64,000 nucleotides of DNA from Candidatus Scalindua sp. SCAELEC01 (GCA_004282745.1 SHMT01000005.1:62001-126000), one strand, 5' to 3'. Shown: positions 5,938 through 48,148, numbered from the stretch's first letter. Program-made: numbers and translations. The notes: generated from the letters alone by a model not told the origin.

Positions 5938-6050
5938 TATACTCATCTCATAATAGTTTTCGGATAATATCCGAGATAAAATTGAGCGAGTATAACTGCA
6001 ACCAAGCTTTGGTTTTTTTTAAACCCTAAAACCAAATCGGTTTTAGTATA
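5938..6050. repeat. Repeat family A, copy 2
   Basis: The copy runs in the opposite orientation to copy 1, from TATACTCATCTCATAATAG to CCAAATCGGTTTTAGTATA. It keeps CGGATAATATCCGAG but lacks the longer middle of copy 1. It begins seven bases after the Fn3 gene stop. Confidence 0.75.
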
Positions 6051-7197: not shown

Positions 7198-7368
7198 ATG
7201 AGATGCCTAGTGGCTGATAGTCTGGGATATCTATATTTTTCTCTATTTCCGGTGTTAGAGAGACAAACATGGATCTTGAACGACACACCCTAAAGGGCGA
7301 CTCGCATTCAACTCGGTAAACTACGAGTACATTTAAGAAAAACTTGAAAAGTGATAAGGGGGTTAATA

Positions 7369-7923
7369 ATGAAAGATTATATAATAACGTTTTTTCAGAT
7401 AGTGGTCGTCTTATTGGTTTCTTTCCCTCTCTTCGCAGATAAGAAAGTTTTGCAGAAGGAGCCGTTAGTCAAGGAGGGTGGCAGATCACCGCTTAAGCTC
7501 ATCAATGAAAGGGTACCGTTTGATGATATCGTAACTGGTGGACAACCTACTTACGACCAGCTAAAAGTGGCCCATGAATCAGGTTTTAAGGTGGTCGTTA
7601 ATCTCCGAACGGATAAAGAGATTCCAAGCCCTGCACAGGAGTCGTTGTGGGTAGGGGAATTGGGGATGAGATATTATCCTATTCCCGTTAACGGTGCCAA
7701 AGGCATTAGCGTGGAGAATGCAAATCTATTGGAAGAGGTCTTGTCGAATCGGGAAAACTACCCACTCATTGTTCATTGTCAGAGTGGTAATCGAGTTGGG
7801 GCCCTTTTTGCGCTCAAGGCCTTTCATATCGATGGAAAGAGTGTAAGTGAGTCACTCACGATTGGGAAGAGGGCGGGATTAGGTACTCTGCAACCAGTTG
7901 TTCAAAAACTATTGAAACGTTAG
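7369..7923 (+). CDS. Exported phosphatase-like protein (DUF442/dual-specificity type)
   Basis: The ATG at 7369 follows a GGGGG ribosome-binding site by seven bases and gives 184 residues. Residues 1-24 form a signal peptide (IITFFQIVVVLLVSFPLFAD). The mature part contains VTGGQPTYDQL, VVNLRTDKEIPSP and IVHCQSGNRVGALFAL. HCQSGNR is the CX5R phosphatase signature with catalytic Cys and Arg, and the GGQP start is typical of the DUF442 branch. It probably acts in the periplasm, but the substrate cannot be told from sequence. It stands alone between rpiB and a repeat. Confidence 0.78.
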   Translation: MKDYIITFFQIVVVLLVSFPLFADKKVLQKEPLVKEGGRSPLKLINERVPFDDIVTGGQPTYDQLKVAHESGFKVVVNLRTDKEIPSPAQESLWVGELGMRYYPIPVNGAKGISVENANLLEEVLSNRENYPLIVHCQSGNRVGALFALKAFHIDGKSVSESLTIGKRAGLGTLQPVVQKLLKR

Positions 7924-7994
7924 ACGAAAGCAATTTTGAACGGAGGTAAGCACGCATACCCTTGTGTGCTTTTTATTTGAGATTTGTAATTTAT

Positions 7995-8125
7995 TATACT
8001 AAAACCGATTTGGTTTTCAGTTTTACCGGAAACCCAATCTTGGTGAAGGTATCCCCGGATGCCGAGGACTTTACTCGCTCAATTGATCTCGGATTTTATC
8101 CGAAAACCATTATGAGATGAGTATA
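7995..8125. repeat. Repeat family A, copy 3
   Basis: From TATACTAAAACCGATTTGG to GAGATGAGTATA, in the same orientation as copy 1. Shared internal blocks are TTGGTGAAGGTATCCCC and GCCGAGGACTTTACTCG. It lies downstream of both converging transcription units, between the phosphatase gene and the AAA+ nuclease gene. Confidence 0.78.
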
Positions 8126-8181
8126 ATTTCTGTTTTGTTCTGGATCAGCCAGGTTGGGGGGAGTTAGAATATATTTTCCTC

Positions 8182-10029
8182 TTACATCCACTCCGGTCTC
8201 TTTTTTAGTATCATTCGACCGTATTCAGTTATTGCACGTCCCCGTTTTGTCGATTTGGCTGCATTTATCTGCATCAGATATGGTTCGATGATGTTTCTGA
8301 TCTCTTCTATTTTGCATGGCAACAGATTGTTCAATACGAGAATGCCCCTGGGTTGCTCTTTAACACATTCAAGATACAAGAAGTCATTGGCCGTAAGGCC
8401 GTTTTCATCGACCTGCCAAACGTCCCTTAACATATTTTGAAGACCTTCCAATGAAAAAGGGTATGATCCGGCCTTGAATTCATTGTGTTCAAGAAAATCA
8501 CCCATTCGACTTATGGCAAGACGCGGTACAAGCCTCCCAACCTTTGCAATACCCTGGCATACGTCAGGAGTTATTACTATCTTTCTATTCTTGCATTCCT
8601 CGAAAATTATCATACCCACCTCTTCGATAGAGTAAGGGACCAGGTCTATCATCCTGAAACGAGTGAGAAATGCAGAGGGTAAGATACCCTTGTCGGTTGT
8701 CGCCAATAATAGTGTAGCATCAACGAAATCTCCCACAAACTCTTGTACAACGGCCCTTCGCTCTTTTGGTTCAAAAAAATTGAGAAACTCATCTGCCTTT
8801 CTCGAAAGTTTGTGCGCTTCATCGATAAAGAGTACAAGTGGGGGGTACTTCAGTCTGGGCTTTCCCGAATCGATGCCATTATCTTCTGTTTGTAAGTTAT
8901 GGGTCCTGATTGTCCGGTCGATTTCTGACACCAGCTGTTCTAAATTGCTAAAAGAGGTAGCAGGTATATTGATGAAAGGTAATTCCAGACACGAAGCAAC
9001 TCTTCTTGCCAACTCCGTCTTTCCCAAACCAGCGGGTCCGCAAAACATAATATTATCCGGCATCTTCCTCGGCTGTTTTTTTGTTGCCAGTGTAAGCTTC
9101 ACCTTTAGCTTTCTGACAGATAATTCATTTCCAATAAATCCGGCAAAGGCCTCCTCCACTTCTGCAGGGAATGGGGGTGTAGGCTCTTCAATCTTGATAT
9201 CTTCTCTTGCCTTCTGTGGTACAATCTCTTCACAGGGACTGAAAGACCATAAGATAGCGCGTTTACAGGTTACCCCTTTAACGGCTTCGATCAATGACAT
9301 GTAAAAGAGTACTTGTGCAATCTGCAGTTCATATTGACCTTGGTTTCCATACTTGTATTCCCATAGACAAATTTCCCCATTATCCTGGTTCAAGGTCACG
9401 GCATCCGGTCTGCTTCGTAAATGGATCTTCTTGTTACCAAACTTTATTACGGAATTAAGCTGAGTTTCCAGGTCCAGAAAATAGGTAGACGGTGAGAAAT
9501 TCTTCATGTTCAATTTTTTGAGATTAAGGCAAATCTCTTTTACCCACAATTTGATACACTCCATGAGGATATCACACTTCTCAATATCACTATCGTTTTT
9601 TAACAAACCGGATGATTGTGCTAATGAGATAAGCTTTCTATGAAAAAGAGAACTCCATACAAATTGGTATGTTTCATCCGGATTAGGTAGGCTCAATCCT
9701 TCCCGCAGACATTCAGCACCTTCTCTTCGGAAAAACAAGATTGCCTCTTTTAACCAATCGTGAAGTCGATTGCCAATGTCAAGGGCATCAACTCTATTAT
9801 TGCGAGGGGCAATCTCAAAATGTTGACTTATATCTTTTGCGTAAGTTGGGAGAAGGGCCTTTAGCCTCTCTTTGATTTCTGTTACCGTGAATGATGGGAT
9901 TCCCTCCCGTGTCCTATGGAGTGGAGGGAGTTCCTCAATATTATCAAACAGGGTACGAAAGACTTTCTCTTGCAATTTGGCTCTTAAATCGGCTGTTATT
10001 TCCAGTTTAAAAATTTCAGGTTTAAGCAT
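8182..10029 (-). CDS. PD-(D/E)XK nuclease fused to RuvB-like AAA+ ATPase
   Basis: The start at 10029 (MLKPEIFKLEI) is preferred because AGAGGGG stands six bases upstream. It overlaps the previous gene by eight bases and gives 615 residues. Residues 1-290 carry a Cas4/RecB-type nuclease signature: RPDAV (Asp209), WEYKYG (Glu224, Lys226) and QIAQ (Gln236). Residues about 300-615 are an AAA+ module: Walker A GPAGLGKTE at 331-339, Walker B LVLFIDEAH at about 399-406, LTRFR as sensor or arginine finger, and a RuvB-like winged helix (IEEIRNIIEPYLMQ ... RGRAITEYG). RuvB normally has no nuclease domain. As the last gene of a three-gene operon it likely acts on branched or invading DNA with the two upstream proteins; this role is inferred. 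Confidence 0.8.
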   Translation of the reverse strand: MLKPEIFKLEITADLRAKLQEKVFRTLFDNIEELPPLHRTREGIPSFTVTEIKERLKALLPTYAKDISQHFEIAPRNNRVDALDIGNRLHDWLKEAILFFRREGAECLREGLSLPNPDETYQFVWSSLFHRKLISLAQSSGLLKNDSDIEKCDILMECIKLWVKEICLNLKKLNMKNFSPSTYFLDLETQLNSVIKFGNKKIHLRSRPDAVTLNQDNGEICLWEYKYGNQGQYELQIAQVLFYMSLIEAVKGVTCKRAILWSFSPCEEIVPQKAREDIKIEEPTPPFPAEVEEAFAGFIGNELSVRKLKVKLTLATKKQPRKMPDNIMFCGPAGLGKTELARRVASCLELPFINIPATSFSNLEQLVSEIDRTIRTHNLQTEDNGIDSGKPRLKYPPLVLFIDEAHKLSRKADEFLNFFEPKERRAVVQEFVGDFVDATLLLATTDKGILPSAFLTRFRMIDLVPYSIEEVGMIIFEECKNRKIVITPDVCQGIAKVGRLVPRLAISRMGDFLEHNEFKAGSYPFSLEGLQNMLRDVWQVDENGLTANDFLYLECVKEQPRGILVLNNLLPCKIEEIRNIIEPYLMQINAAKSTKRGRAITEYGRMILKKRPEWM

Positions 10030-12130
10030 TGAGCCCCTCTTCTTTCCAGACAACTATTTTTCTCTGTATTGGGAAATGGGGATCGGTCGGGTAAATATCT
10101 AAAAGTCCTCGCAAATCGTCTGAGTGTAACCAACTGATAAGTTGACCTTGATCAATGTCATTTACGCCACTTTGATACATAAGATAGAGTAATCGTTCAA
10201 AGCAGATCCATCTCTCTCGGCTCATTATAGTCCGAATCTGATCTGTTAAGGTATTTAACACATCTGCTACCTCTTCTGCAGGCCAGTTTTGTGGAGGAGA
10301 TGGTTTCCTTTGAGGACTGATATCATTCCCCCACTCTTTTGCTCGGTTTTCTACCATGCGCATAAACTCATGAACAATCTCTTTGCCTGTTAAGGCCGGC
10401 ATTTTAGAAAGACAATGCATGATATTTGTGTGGGTAGGATCTGGGTCGGTCTTGCAGTCATTGAAATCTCCCTGCCGCATCTTTGCCAGCAATCTTCCCA
10501 GGGTATAAAGATCGCGAATGTCATTACTGTCCAACAAGATAAAGGTTTTATCTTGTTGGAATTCTGCCAAGAGATCTTGGGTGACTTTCCCGGTTGTGGG
10601 TATTTTGGCGTCTCTCAATAAGATTGTGTTTGGGGGGGCATCTGCTAATTTTCTGAGAACATTCGGGAATTTGTTTCCTTGTTGAACGTCATATCCAATC
10701 ACACGGATTTTGTTCTCCCCCAAGGTGTATACTCTGTCTGATCCGATAAAATTTGTCACAATATTGTCAGTTACGAAAGGACCATCTTCGTAGGTCACCG
10801 TTATTTCACCCTGTCCGGACAAGATTATTTCAAATAGTTCGGAAAGCCTATCGGCAATAAACGTCGTATTCGTAATGAGCTCAAGTGCATCAACCGCTTC
10901 TCTGATTTCCGAGAAATTTTCCTCAATCATTGCCAGGAGATCTTCCTTTTTGGATATGGCACCGGTAATGACGCTTCTATAGTGGAATTGAGCTTCGTTT
11001 AATAAGATTCTCGGGAAGAGAGGCTCTTCTCCCAGTACGGTTTCTAAAATATCTTCAGTAAAGGGGAAGATGGGGTCTTCTTTCTTATCTTTGCGCCGCA
11101 GTTCAATGAGCTCTTCAGTGGAGAGTCGCTGGAATATAAGCGCTCTCTTATTTCTGAGGTTATGGATTGCTCTCACGTGGACAATTGGTAATGTTAATGC
11201 CCCCTCGGATGACGGGGTTCCAATTCGCTGCTTTAATGGAACAGTGAGATGTGTCGACCAGGTATCAAATGCGTCTTCAAGCAGACTGATTACGACATAA
11301 AAATTCGTGCTGTCGAACAGATCAAACAAGATTGTCTCAAATATTTCTATATGTTCATTTTTCATTCTGTCAAGCTGGTCTAGGACTATTAAGATCGGTC
11401 CGATATCTTTTGTGAGGTATCCAAGAGCTGTCAGAAGGAGTTTTATTTCGGAATTGCTCATCGGTTCGCCAGCGTCAATTATTTCAAGATCTTTGTTGCT
11501 CATAGAGCTGGAACCTGAAAGCCATTCGAGGGCGAGGTTCTCTTTTTCGTGATCAAGAACACTCAATAGGACTTTGGTAATTTGATTTGTTAATTTAAGG
11601 TCACTACTCTGTCCTGCAAATACCATTAATTCATTGAAAATTTTTGGATAGTGTTTCTTCTTAACCTTCTTCCATTTTTTATGTACCTTGTCAAACGGCT
11701 TTTTTGAAAACTTCTTTGTTTTCTGCAAAAGCCCATAGACGATTTGACGCATATGTGAATACTCTAATACCGTATCATTTTCTTTTACTGGTTGCCCTAA
11801 CGCCCATATGATTTTTTGAAGCATGTGCCTACTGATTTCATAATGCTGGAGAGGGGGGTTTGAAACATAGGTGAAATATGCATGTTGACTATGGTACCGC
11901 CTGAGGCATGAAATAATGTGAGATTTTCCAGAACCGGAGCTTCCCACAAGAAATCTTACCCTCGTATGCAGTTGGTTTCTCACCTCTTCTATGTCTTGAC
12001 AGAGAATATCTAAAACTTCCTTATTAATCGAGCTTACCGTTTGGAAATTATCGTCATTTCCCCAGATATCATCTTCATTAACATATGATTTAATAAAGGG
12101 GTTAAGGTGTAGGTATTTTTCTAACGACAT
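10022..12130 (-). CDS. P-loop ATPase (Orc/STAND-like) of the three-gene system
   Basis: This 702-residue protein has a Walker A GSSGSGKSH at residues 63-71 and a Walker B ILIVLDQLD at 247-254, giving an AAA/STAND-like ATPase of the kind that loads or senses other proteins on DNA. Residues 140-165 are very lysine-rich (KKPFDKVHKKWKKVKKKH), a possible nucleic-acid-binding loop. The C-terminal half, with several charged helices, matches no family I know. AGGAGAG stands about nine bases before the ATG. It starts three bases after the upstream gene and overlaps the nuclease-ATPase gene by eight bases, so the three are surely co-transcribed. Confidence 0.75.
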   Translation of the reverse strand: MSLEKYLHLNPFIKSYVNEDDIWGNDDNFQTVSSINKEVLDILCQDIEEVRNQLHTRVRFLVGSSGSGKSHIISCLRRYHSQHAYFTYVSNPPLQHYEISRHMLQKIIWALGQPVKENDTVLEYSHMRQIVYGLLQKTKKFSKKPFDKVHKKWKKVKKKHYPKIFNELMVFAGQSSDLKLTNQITKVLLSVLDHEKENLALEWLSGSSSMSNKDLEIIDAGEPMSNSEIKLLLTALGYLTKDIGPILIVLDQLDRMKNEHIEIFETILFDLFDSTNFYVVISLLEDAFDTWSTHLTVPLKQRIGTPSSEGALTLPIVHVRAIHNLRNKRALIFQRLSTEELIELRRKDKKEDPIFPFTEDILETVLGEEPLFPRILLNEAQFHYRSVITGAISKKEDLLAMIEENFSEIREAVDALELITNTTFIADRLSELFEIILSGQGEITVTYEDGPFVTDNIVTNFIGSDRVYTLGENKIRVIGYDVQQGNKFPNVLRKLADAPPNTILLRDAKIPTTGKVTQDLLAEFQQDKTFILLDSNDIRDLYTLGRLLAKMRQGDFNDCKTDPDPTHTNIMHCLSKMPALTGKEIVHEFMRMVENRAKEWGNDISPQRKPSPPQNWPAEEVADVLNTLTDQIRTIMSRERWICFERLLYLMYQSGVNDIDQGQLISWLHSDDLRGLLDIYPTDPHFPIQRKIVVWKEEGLNA

Positions 12131-12133
12131 TGT

Positions 12134-12976
12134 TCAACTCTCCTCGACATATCTCCAGTAATATGCAATAGTACCATGACGTATTTCAAAAAGGTATTTT
12201 CTTTCATCTTCCGGTATTTGATCGGGCGTGGAATGGTGCGTCAATTCAACCTTACCCTCTTTGGAAAGGATTTTAAGGCGGTTGTTAAATACTTCAATGT
12301 CAGCCTCATATCCATTTTCGTTGCACCAAGTGAGGTAACGGCAGCCTGTCCACTTTATTGGAATAGTCTCTAGTCCGTATCTTTTGTGTCGGTCTTCTTG
12401 GTACCATTTCCTTATCGGCAGGTCCTCTAACGAGGCCTTGGGCTTTTTTGGTGCTGCTGCAATTTCCGGCACCTTTTCTTCCTTAAGAAAAGCTTCCCAC
12501 TCCGAAGGTGTTAGTTTTCTTACTCGTACGGGATTGAACCACTCCGATAATTCTGTGGTTATTTTTTGTATTCCCTTTAAGTACCGTGTTCTCCCATATT
12601 TAACCTCAAAAATATCTCTTTCTCTAAATAGTTGAGCTAAGGCGTCATCAAAAAATTCAAGTTCCCATTTGCAGAATAGACTTTTAACACTTTTGAATGT
12701 GCGATCTTTACAATCTTTTTCAAACAGGTGGTAAATCTTATTTTTTACGTATTGTTGAGGAGCGATATGCCAGTATCGTTCTTTTGAATTTTTGCGAAGA
12801 GAAGGATAGGGAAAAATTTTTTCTTCGTCCAGAAGAATCTGTATGCTTTGTGTACAACATTCTCGGTTACCTTCTGATTTAAATACTCCTTTACAGATCT
12901 GTTGTGATGTTAACGGTGATTTTGCTTCAGTTAAAAAAGTTTCAATCCTTTTACAATTATTTAATTGCTCATTCAT
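12134..12976 (-). CDS. Winged-helix protein, first gene of the three-gene system
   Basis: This 280-residue protein is not assigned to a family. Residues about 8-70 (CKRIETFLTEAKSPLTSQQI ... LLDEEKIFPYP ... RYWHI) have the pattern of a winged helix-turn-helix, and two similar modules seem to follow (KNKIYHLFEKDCKD ... RYLKG, and 215-275 ending LFEIRHGTIAYYW). Each ends in an aromatic beta strand. This suggests a DNA-binding specificity or adaptor subunit. AAGGA stands about nine bases before the ATG at 12976. No methyltransferase or modification gene is present in the operon. Confidence 0.65.
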   Translation of the reverse strand: MNEQLNNCKRIETFLTEAKSPLTSQQICKGVFKSEGNRECCTQSIQILLDEEKIFPYPSLRKNSKERYWHIAPQQYVKNKIYHLFEKDCKDRTFKSVKSLFCKWELEFFDDALAQLFRERDIFEVKYGRTRYLKGIQKITTELSEWFNPVRVRKLTPSEWEAFLKEEKVPEIAAAPKKPKASLEDLPIRKWYQEDRHKRYGLETIPIKWTGCRYLTWCNENGYEADIEVFNNRLKILSKEGKVELTHHSTPDQIPEDERKYLFEIRHGTIAYYWRYVEES

Positions 12977-13910: not shown

Positions 13911-15626
13911 ATGAAAATGAAGACTATTCACATTTTGCTTGTTATAAATGATGTTATACACATTGAATTGCTGGGTCAAGCCTTTGAAAACCGGTCTTCA
14001 CTCATGACTCAGACAACGGTTACTAATCTCATCGATGCCCGTGCCTGCCTGGCAAAGTATTCGCCTGATCTTGTGGTTGTCGATTATGATCTAATGGATG
14101 GAAAAGGTACCACCCTTATCGGAGCGGACAGCGCCCAAGTAAGCATACCCGTGTTGGTTTTGACTAATTACGAAGACGAAAAGGTGGCGAGGGAAGTGAT
14201 AAAATTTGGGGCTTCAGATTGTCTGGTAAAGTCTGAGGCAACTCTGGTAAACATGCCGTACATCTGTGAAAGAGCCCTGCGCGTGTGGCGTTATATCCGT
14301 GAACAGAAAAAGACAGGAGAGGTAGACCCCATATTAACCTACTATGATTCTTTAACAGGATTGCCAAACAGAGTTCTTTTTAAAGATCGTCTTATGTTGG
14401 AAATTGCTCATGCAGAGCGCAATAACACCATACTTGCGGTTATGTTTCTCGACCTTGATGGATTTGAGGAGATCTGTGATACCCTTGGAAAATGTATAGG
14501 TGAACAGTTACTGATAGAGGTTGCCAAACGATTTGTGAATACCGTGAGGAAAAACGATACGGTTACACGACATGGGGAGTATGAATTTACGTTGTTACTA
14601 CCAGGAATTACTCACGCAGAAGATGCGGCTGAAATGGCCAACAAGATCAATGAAACCGTGAGACAACCAATAACGTTAGAGTCACACGAACTCCATATTA
14701 CTACGAGTATTGGAATTGCTCTTTATCCCGTTGATAGTAACGATGCTGATATATTATTAAAGAACGCCGATATCGCTATGTATCATGCCAAGGATCAAGG
14801 TAGAGACAACTTTCAGTTTTACAAAACACCTCTTCAGAGTAATGCTTATGCAAGGATGGCCATGGTTGACGATTTGCGGAAAGCCATAAAGCAAGAAGAA
14901 TTTATGGTCTATTATCAACCACAGATGGACATTAAGAGTGGTAGGATTGTTGGTATGGAAGCCCTCGCAAGATGGAGACACCCTGATAAAGGGATAGTCT
15001 ACCCTGCAGAGTTTATGAATATTGCTGAGCGAACAAGAATGATAGTACCCTTGGGAGAGATGATACTCAAGACCGCGTGTGCCCAAAACAAGGCATGGAG
15101 GGATGCTGGCTTCACTCCATTGCGTGTGGCGGTCAACCTTTCAGATCTCCAGTTTAATCAGCAAAACCTTATTGAAATGGTTGTACAGGTCTTAAAGGAG
15201 ACAGGTATGGAACCAAATCTGCTGGAACTAGAGGTTACCGAAAACACCTCAATGAGGAACGCGGATGCATCTTCCTACAAAATGAGGGAGTTGGTTGACG
15301 TTGGTGTTCGTATAACTATTGACGATTTGGGTACGGGACTCTGTTCCTTAAGCTATCTTAAAAAGTTCCCCCTTAGTACACTCAAGATCGATCGATCTTT
15401 TGTGAATGAAGTAATATTCGACGTCAATGATTCGGTCATCATTATTGCCCTTATCGCTATGGCGAAAAACCTCAACCTAAAGATAGTTGCAGAGGGAGTT
15501 GAGACAGAAGAGCAGCTAAACTTTCTGAAACAACAAGATTGCGACGAGATACAGGGTTTTCTGTTTAGTAAGCCGGTAACAGCCGACGAATTTGAAAAAT
15601 TACTGGTACAGGATAAACTTTTGTAA
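13911..15626 (+). CDS. REC-GGDEF(degenerate)-EAL c-di-GMP phosphodiesterase
   Basis: This 571-residue cytoplasmic protein has a receiver domain (residues 5-120; LVVVDYDLMDGKG holds the phospho-acceptor Asp), a GGDEF domain (about 140-305) and an EAL domain (about 320-565). The GGDEF signature reads GEYEF at 222-226, so diguanylate cyclase activity is unlikely. The EAL domain keeps its catalytic residues: EAL at 350-352, NLS, LEVTEN, DDLGTG, KIDRSFV and EGVET. It should hydrolyse c-di-GMP, perhaps controlled by phosphorylation and by GTP bound to the dead GGDEF domain. A c-di-GMP riboswitch lies in its leader, which suggests a feedback loop. No obvious ribosome-binding site precedes the ATG, and the next ATG (13917) is equally possible. 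Confidence 0.9.
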   Translation: MKMKTIHILLVINDVIHIELLGQAFENRSSLMTQTTVTNLIDARACLAKYSPDLVVVDYDLMDGKGTTLIGADSAQVSIPVLVLTNYEDEKVAREVIKFGASDCLVKSEATLVNMPYICERALRVWRYIREQKKTGEVDPILTYYDSLTGLPNRVLFKDRLMLEIAHAERNNTILAVMFLDLDGFEEICDTLGKCIGEQLLIEVAKRFVNTVRKNDTVTRHGEYEFTLLLPGITHAEDAAEMANKINETVRQPITLESHELHITTSIGIALYPVDSNDADILLKNADIAMYHAKDQGRDNFQFYKTPLQSNAYARMAMVDDLRKAIKQEEFMVYYQPQMDIKSGRIVGMEALARWRHPDKGIVYPAEFMNIAERTRMIVPLGEMILKTACAQNKAWRDAGFTPLRVAVNLSDLQFNQQNLIEMVVQVLKETGMEPNLLELEVTENTSMRNADASSYKMRELVDVGVRITIDDLGTGLCSLSYLKKFPLSTLKIDRSFVNEVIFDVNDSVIIIALIAMAKNLNLKIVAEGVETEEQLNFLKQQDCDEIQGFLFSKPVTADEFEKLLVQDKLL

Positions 15627-47901: not shown

Positions 47902-47954
47902 TGTGATAATATGTTATCACAAATATGTTTACTGTATTACGAAATAAGGTTGGA

Positions 47955-48118
47955 TATACTCATTTTATAATGCTTTTCGGATAAAATTCGAGAAAAAACG
48001 GAGCTAGTAAAGTCCTCGGCTTTTGCCCGGGGATAACGGCCCGCCTGAACGACATGTCGGACAGGCAACCAAGACTTGGTTTTCAACAAAACCTGAAAAC
48101 CAAATCAGTTTTAGTATA
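47955..48118. repeat. Repeat family A, copy 4 (inverted)
   Basis: From TATACTCATTTTATAATGC to CCAAATCAGTTTTAGTATA, inverse to copy 1. It shares AGTAAAGTCCTCGGC, CGGATAAAATTCGAG and the CCGCCTGAACG/CGGACAGGC region. It ends 30 bases before moaA and so lies in its leader. Confidence 0.8.
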
Positions 48119-48148
48119 AATAGATGATCAAAGGAGTACTGAGTTAAG

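Follow-up and report, generated by a model that had tools for sequence, protein, structure and literature searches.

Three genes on the minus strand of the window, the 64,000-nt stretch of anammox-type bacterial DNA analyzed here, probably encode a stand-alone module for restriction of invading DNA, built on the plan of the predicted HerA/FtsK capture systems with a RuvB ring motor in place of HerA/FtsK. The genes, G1-G2-G3, run from 12976 to 8182; G1 and G2 are separated by 3 bases (12131 to 12133), and G2 and G3 overlap by 8 bases (10022 to 10029), in agreement with the arrangement given in the original prediction. The operon has the following features.

12134 to 12976, minus strand: G1, 280 aa, putative DNA recognizer, probably with about three winged-helix domains
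10022 to 12130, minus strand: G2, 702 aa, AAA+/STAND-like ATPase (Orc/Cdc6-like), the family-defining subunit; AAA_16 match at 1e-8
11918 to 11944, minus strand: Walker A motif of G2, GSSGSGKSH, read from sequence, with GxxGxGK..H invariant in 11 family members
10472 to 10855, minus strand: α/β domain of G2 (residues ∼426 to 553), candidate inactive restriction-endonuclease fold, predicted as H-E-E-E-H-E-H-E-H at very low confidence
10025 to 10453, minus strand: C-terminal helical region of G2 (residues ∼560 to 702), predicted helices only, at very low confidence
8182 to 10029, minus strand: G3, 615 aa, nuclease-RuvB fusion, with its ATG at 10029
9160 to 10029, minus strand: PD-(D/E)XK (RecB/Cas4-like) nuclease of G3, with H90, D209, E224-x-K226, and Q239xxxY243 present
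8407 to 9150, minus strand: RuvB-like AAA+ motor of G3, with the Walker A, Walker B DE, sensor-1 TT, arginine-finger, and sensor-2 PR positions kept
8206 to 8406, minus strand: RuvB C-terminal winged helix of G3 (EPYLMQ...TKRGR..T), from a RuvB_C match at 1.8e-11 and alignment with RuvB structures

The original prediction took this gene set to be undescribed, but it follows the plan of HerA/FtsK capture systems, which have been predicted to act against invaders and in which the motor is coupled with an Orc/CDC6 ATPase (Rakesh, Aravind and Krishnan 2024, PMC10853773). Capture systems combine an Orc/CDC6 ATPase, which has an inactive nuclease domain ahead of a C-terminal wHTH, with an active nuclease and HerA/FtsK, and a subset has a separate protein with 2 to 4 wHTH domains (PMC10853773). 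The operon shares with them an Orc/CDC6-like ATPase (G2, by its AAA_16 match and its homologues beside HerA/FtsK elsewhere), a PD-(D/E)XK nuclease that is active as judged by sequence (G3, with a PDDEXK_1 match and the H, D, E-x-K, and QxxxY motifs), a ring motor, and probably a separate multi-wHTH-type protein. The difference lies in the motor, which is HerA/FtsK in capture systems and a RuvB-family AAA+ protein in G3. Because the name-giving HerA/FtsK motor is missing, we regard the operon as a variant of a capture system and not as a member. Motor domains of capture systems have been exchanged repeatedly between sources (PMC10853773), and the word RuvB occurs neither in that paper nor in a 2026 study of BREX in which the capture idea is extended (PMC12839542). 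On sequence comparison, the swap to a RuvB motor appears to be all that is new, the rest of the plan having been predicted already.

We infer an anti-invader or anti-phage role in which loading, pumping, and cleavage are divided among the three proteins. G1 would recognize some feature of the invading DNA; G2 would serve as an ATP-dependent switch and loader, placing the ring of G3 on the recognized DNA; the RuvB motor of G3 would then translocate duplex DNA with no need of RuvA, and the nuclease carried by each G3 subunit would cut or nick while the DNA is pumped. The same division of labor between recognizer, switch or loader, and translocating nuclease had been put forward in the original prediction, and it matches the published capture proposal (PMC10853773).

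In Pfam searches, G3 matched AAA (7.3e-12) and RuvB_N (1e-9) as well as RuvB_C, and no FtsK/HerA domain; the RuvB part matched the NCBIfam RuvB model at 2.6e-30, far under that model's cut-off. Alignment of G3 with RuvB crystal structures brought together the Walker A, Walker B DE, sensor-1 TT, arginine-finger, and sensor-2 positions and the T.RGR wing. The hairpin before sensor 1, which we take to be the RuvA-binding element of RuvB, is shortened relative to four canonical RuvB proteins, and there is an insert before Walker B. Because this hairpin has been lost, RuvA is not expected to be the loader of G3, and G2 is the obvious substitute. A canonical, adjacent ruvA-ruvB pair is found elsewhere in the same genome, so G3 would be an extra, diverged copy of RuvB. 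G3 has the AAA+ core and C-terminal winged helix of the RuvB of RuvABC; unlike that protein, it has a fused nuclease, lacks the RuvA-binding hairpin, and does not lie beside ruvA or ruvC. A motor genuinely related to RuvB, winged helix included, and joined to a RecB-like nuclease might instead belong to a resident DNA repair or recombination machine, in which RuvB moves junctions, the nuclease trims ends, and G1 and G2 target G3 to branched or broken chromosomal DNA. The ordinary ruvA-ruvB pair and the lost hairpin both argue against this alternative, to which we return with the distribution of the operon.

The nuclease domain of G3 matched PDDEXK_1 at 2.9e-4, just below the Pfam cut-off, and the homologous domain in FtsK/HerA-type versions matched it at 3e-16, 3.2e-11, and 8e-12. 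Profiles of the nuclease and of G1 were built without any RuvB-type member and run over 587 ORFs. With the FtsK-type-only nuclease profile, the two RuvB-type G3 proteins ranked directly after the known members (E values of 0.0016 and 0.0026); the window G3 had the value of 0.0026, and the unrelated ORF that ranked next had 0.8. The good scores of the homologues, together with the recovery of G3 by this profile, secure the nuclease assignment, and the PD-(D/E)XK fold originally proposed for G3 is backed accordingly. In a motif alignment made by eye, H90, D209, E224-x-K226, and Q239xxxY243 line up with the FtsK/HerA-type nucleases; we take this set to be the motifs of RecB-like nucleases. A nuclease-plus-Walker A profile was uninformative and returned mostly HslU/RuvB noise.

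G2 has a Walker B motif, LIVLDQLD, in addition to its Walker A, and the domain reading first given for G2 and G3 is supported by these motifs and by the matches to AAA_16, PDDEXK_1, and RuvB. The Walker B reads as D-Q-h-[DE]-like at codons 251 to 254 of the window G2, with the D and Q invariant in 11 of 11 aligned members; in this family, a glutamine stands where the catalytic glutamate usually does. Given the D-Q in every member, G2 is possibly an ATP-bound switch and not a fast hydrolase. Residues ∼426 to 553 lack the ExK motif, and their order of predicted secondary structure fits an inactive restriction endonuclease (model pLDDT 36), which makes this α/β domain a candidate for that fold. 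The C-terminal helical region occupies the place where capture systems carry a wHTH.

Other operons have ATPases to which G2 is homologous by blastp (1e-13), and a PDB profile search gave only P-loop-level matches and a weak match to a KAP NTPase (E 7e-4). G2 would belong to the published Orc/CDC6 family as that family is described. In an ATPase tree, the RuvB-type branch is long and unplaced, and the idea that it is nested among the FtsK types was dropped. Placement of G2 in BREX, Dnd, or MADS by profile was rejected, as its matches there are at the Walker A level only. For BREX, BrxC_BrxD gave an E value of 0.0057, under the cut-off, and neither PglX nor PglZ was found among the scanned neighbors; for MADS, what mad8 matches in relatives is simply the HerA motor. 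With the PADLOC models, the window proteins gave only short or weak matches, none of them full length.

An STAND-like ATPase with an invariant Walker B "DQ" suggests a signal switch more than a steady hydrolase, and it would also suit abortive infection, in which a sensor ATPase activates G3 as a suicidal nuclease and the cell's own DNA is degraded. SspFGH, a three-gene module with a Walker A protein and an FtsK-like subunit, has been shown experimentally to act against phage, and when unrestrained it damages unmodified self DNA (PMC8092258); the window operon contains no modification gene, and DndC was not found in this genome. However, a processive ring motor fused to a nuclease fits tracking of an invader better than indiscriminate degradation, and no trigger is in evidence. 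We consider abortive infection very unlikely.

The preferred reading, a restriction module of the capture plan, can also be set against SspFGH and DndFGH as whole systems. Both resemble the operon in having three genes for a P-loop ATPase, a DNA-binding protein, and a motor protein, which is FtsK/HerA there; their H subunits, unlike G3, are much larger and have no RuvB. An FtsK/HerA H subunit with a phosphorothioation partner, the hallmark of those systems, has no counterpart here, neither as an FtsK/HerA domain in G3 nor as DndC in the genome. At another site in the same genome (G000:C46:8138-8311), an 1,861-aa frame interrupted by one internal stop matches FtsK/SpoIIIE weakly and may be what is left of a DndH-like gene.

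A G2-family profile of 11 members, used at an E threshold of 1e-6, matched 26 of 392 Planctomycetota genomes, and the family is also present on plasmids of cyanobacteria, alphaproteobacteria, and actinobacteria. The usual context is an upstream winged-helix-type gene, a nuclease, and a HerA/FtsK motor. Three genomes of the same order (loci L089, L091, and L092) have a gene of 242 to 256 aa, G2, and a PDDEXK-FtsK fusion in identical order, with overlapping G2/G3 ends; in L039, the upstream gene encodes 321 aa and is followed, in the same order, by a G2 homologue and PDDEXK-HerA, and the Pseudanabaena PCC 7367 plasmid (L044) has a 266-aa gene, G2, and a PDDEXK-FtsK fusion whose FtsK part matched SspH at 8.5e-68. 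The L089, L091, L092, and L044 operons share with that of the window the gene order, a homologous G2, a homologous nuclease, and similar gene sizes, but their motor is FtsK, with an FtsK-alpha domain in L044, L089, and L091. Several Planctomycetota loci encode a DUF559 nuclease, a wHTH-type gene, and a G2-HerA fusion; a Tsukamurella plasmid has a DUF559 nuclease, a small protein, and a G2-HerA fusion, and Xanthobacter has a truncated copy. Plasmid-borne members adjoin a methyltransferase, helicases, and further nucleases. The recurrence of wHTH-type gene, ATPase, and nuclease/motor, and the retention of all three genes in a second Scalindua genome, bear out the view that they form one unit.

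Other forms of the family were also seen. On two cyanobacterial plasmids (L043 1791-4241 and L045 7506-9911), a DnaQ/RNase-T-like exonuclease is fused to a G2-type ATPase; its neighbors are a DNA methyltransferase, a helicase, and a GIY-YIG nuclease in L043 and DUF262/HNH genes in L045. A single chain of 1,708 aa (L095 5152-10278, genome G100) joins a G2-type ATPase to a HerA motor, with a weaker match to the PDDEXK-set profile. One genome, G001, holds three types: PDDEXK-FtsK (L092, C14), DUF559 with a G2-HerA fusion (L093, C30), and a decayed RuvB type, of which a remnant lies close to an IS end (L011, C79).

G1 takes the position in the gene order of the wHTH-type gene in related systems. 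The original prediction saw several winged helices in it; a low-confidence model (pLDDT 52) points, by its secondary structure, to about three winged-helix-like units, and no Pfam family matched. The structure predictions proposed as a check gave models of G1 (pLDDT 52) and G2 (pLDDT 36) that were too poor for a fold search. A profile of the C-terminal part of G1 from the other systems placed the genes directly upstream of G2 at its top ranks and the RuvB-type G1 copies at ranks 22, 23, and 25 of the 587 ORFs (E values of 0.045, 0.079, and 0.27), the window G1 being the weak match at 0.27; profile-profile comparison of G1 with the other G1 groups was not significant. G1 is likely homologous to the G1 genes of the FtsK/HerA-type systems, a relationship that is weak and unproven. 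Taken gene by gene, the sequence homology to those systems is strong for G2, moderate for the nuclease, and weak for G1, with the motor replaced in the same slot.

The closest relative of the operon is in a MAG of the same genus, Candidatus Scalindua sp. RBC_AMX3 (G045, JALDRB010000014.1), with identities of 67% for G1, 73% for G2, and 77% for G3 and with the same GGDEF/EAL neighbor. Between the two genomes, dN/dS was 0.114 for G1, 0.076 for G2, 0.102 for G3, and 0.083 for the GGDEF/EAL neighbor, values that are rough given nearly saturated synonymous sites. G1, G2, and G3 are thus all under purifying selection. In G001 (another genus of the same order), the third copy is reduced to a G1 with a frameshift (51% identity) and residues 1 to 50 of G2; close by is the end of an apparent ISL3-type transposase that was read by eye. 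The operon is thus present in 2 of 75 class genomes, plus this one remnant, and the RuvB type accompanied by G1 and G2 is known only from one genus and the remnant; the genomes concerned are all drafts or MAGs, and phyla outside Planctomycetota were sampled through plasmid and viral records. The matches listed from a genome contig scan with a loose motif were the Scalindua copy already known and a single HerA fusion. Steady purifying selection at a level like that of the neighboring gene, and the sharing of that neighbor by both Scalindua genomes, would be expected of a resident repair machine; its absence from nearly all relatives, and the use of FtsK/HerA by homologous operons that occur on plasmids, would not, and we regard the repair reading as unlikely. 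The patchy distribution and the decayed copy beside an IS remnant suit a defense gene.

Two features of the neighborhood speak against an anti-invader role: no recognized defense gene lies near the operon in the window, where the Pfam-scanned neighbors are metabolic, signaling, or structural, and the GGDEF/EAL neighbor is kept in both genomes, as it might be beside a resident gene. That neighbor (13911-15626) is a GGDEF/EAL-type response regulator, divergent from the operon and 75% identical between the two Scalindua genomes. Beside the downstream end of the operon lies a gene for an exported-looking dual-specificity-type phosphatase (7351-7923; PTP-NADK, 3e-9). The original prediction also described an island bounded by repeats, which did not stand: the conserved block continues through the GGDEF/EAL gene to ∼15625, and the supposed bounding repeat (7991-8136) is a dispersed element. 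Copies of this element, roughly 100 to 150 bases long, were also seen in the window at ∼650-824, 5938-6050, and 47952-48124 and in a 40-kb segment of the related genome; it adjoins the operon and bounds no conserved block.

The adjoining repeats and the plasmid-borne relatives of G2 could point to machinery by which a mobile element replicates or transfers itself; G2 would then be an Orc/Cdc6-like initiator or loader and G3 a replicative or transfer motor-nuclease. Capture-system neighborhoods do show features of mobile elements as well as of defense (PMC10853773). Against this, the operon is flanked by chromosomal-type genes, with no transposase, integrase, relaxase, or replication gene adjoining it in the window; no phage record matched G2 or the nuclease, and scans of viral contigs with G2 and with the full-length fusion gave no homologue. 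Such an origin is, in our judgment, highly improbable.

The RuvB domain of G3 has relatives of its own. A search with a whole-G3 profile found a 477-aa protein in another planctomycete class, with residues 297 to 608 matched at 1.5e-55, and no canonical RuvB of any genome came within the 1e-18 limit. The N terminus of this protein is DndE (TIGR03184, 3.3e-6, below the model cut-off), and the gene (L104 1477-2910; G304:C405; L105 1792-3225) lies in a dnd cluster with DndD, split over several frames, DndC (TIGR03183, 7.8e-121, above the cut-off), and a cysteine desulfurase identified by eye. The cluster also holds an HNH-type gene, and its RuvB domain is the closest to that of the window G3. The two proteins share the RuvB subgroup (35% identity), the insert before Walker B, and the loss of the hairpin; they differ in that the RuvB of L104 is fused to DndE and accompanied by DndA, DndD, and DndC, whereas that of G3 is fused to a nuclease. 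The DndE-RuvB fusion parallels the HerA/FtsK-DndE fusions already described (PMC10853773). A 391-aa RuvB-like AAA+ protein is also encoded on two viral contigs (L111 4332-5507 and L112 1380-2555), and it matched the window/DndE RuvB subgroup at 3e-39, compared with 5e-11 for canonical RuvB. In a tree of small sample and long branches, the RuvB of G3, DndE-RuvB, and these viral proteins stand apart (group support 85/91) from canonical RuvB, which groups with one viral RuvB (96/94).

Within Planctomycetota at least, the subgroup is rare, since, of 347 genomes of the phylum, its profile at 1e-30 matched just two, the window genome and G304, and whole G3 at 1e-18 had no match in 368 genomes of another class. 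RuvB appears, from these comparisons, to replace HerA/FtsK in two defense contexts, a nuclease fusion and a DndE fusion in a phosphorothioation cluster. More tentatively, and at somewhat less than even odds, we propose a "RuvB-capture" immune class, in which a RuvA-independent RuvB subgroup, possibly of viral source, was recruited at least two times as a motor on invader DNA and may act on branched intermediates of replication or recombination in preference to linear duplex.

These observations would mean that, in immune systems of the capture type, a ring motor can give way to an unrelated one, as HerA/FtsK does here to RuvB. If an unrelated ring motor fits the slot, the core feature would be a nuclease carried by a translocase that encircles DNA and is loaded by an Orc/Cdc6-like switch, and no particular ATPase. 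Capture systems have so far been defined by their HerA/FtsK pump, and searches based on the motor miss the RuvB type. Whether the type of motor decides which DNA is attacked becomes testable, and a RuvB that is active without RuvA would provide a clean test of how another partner can load RuvB rings.
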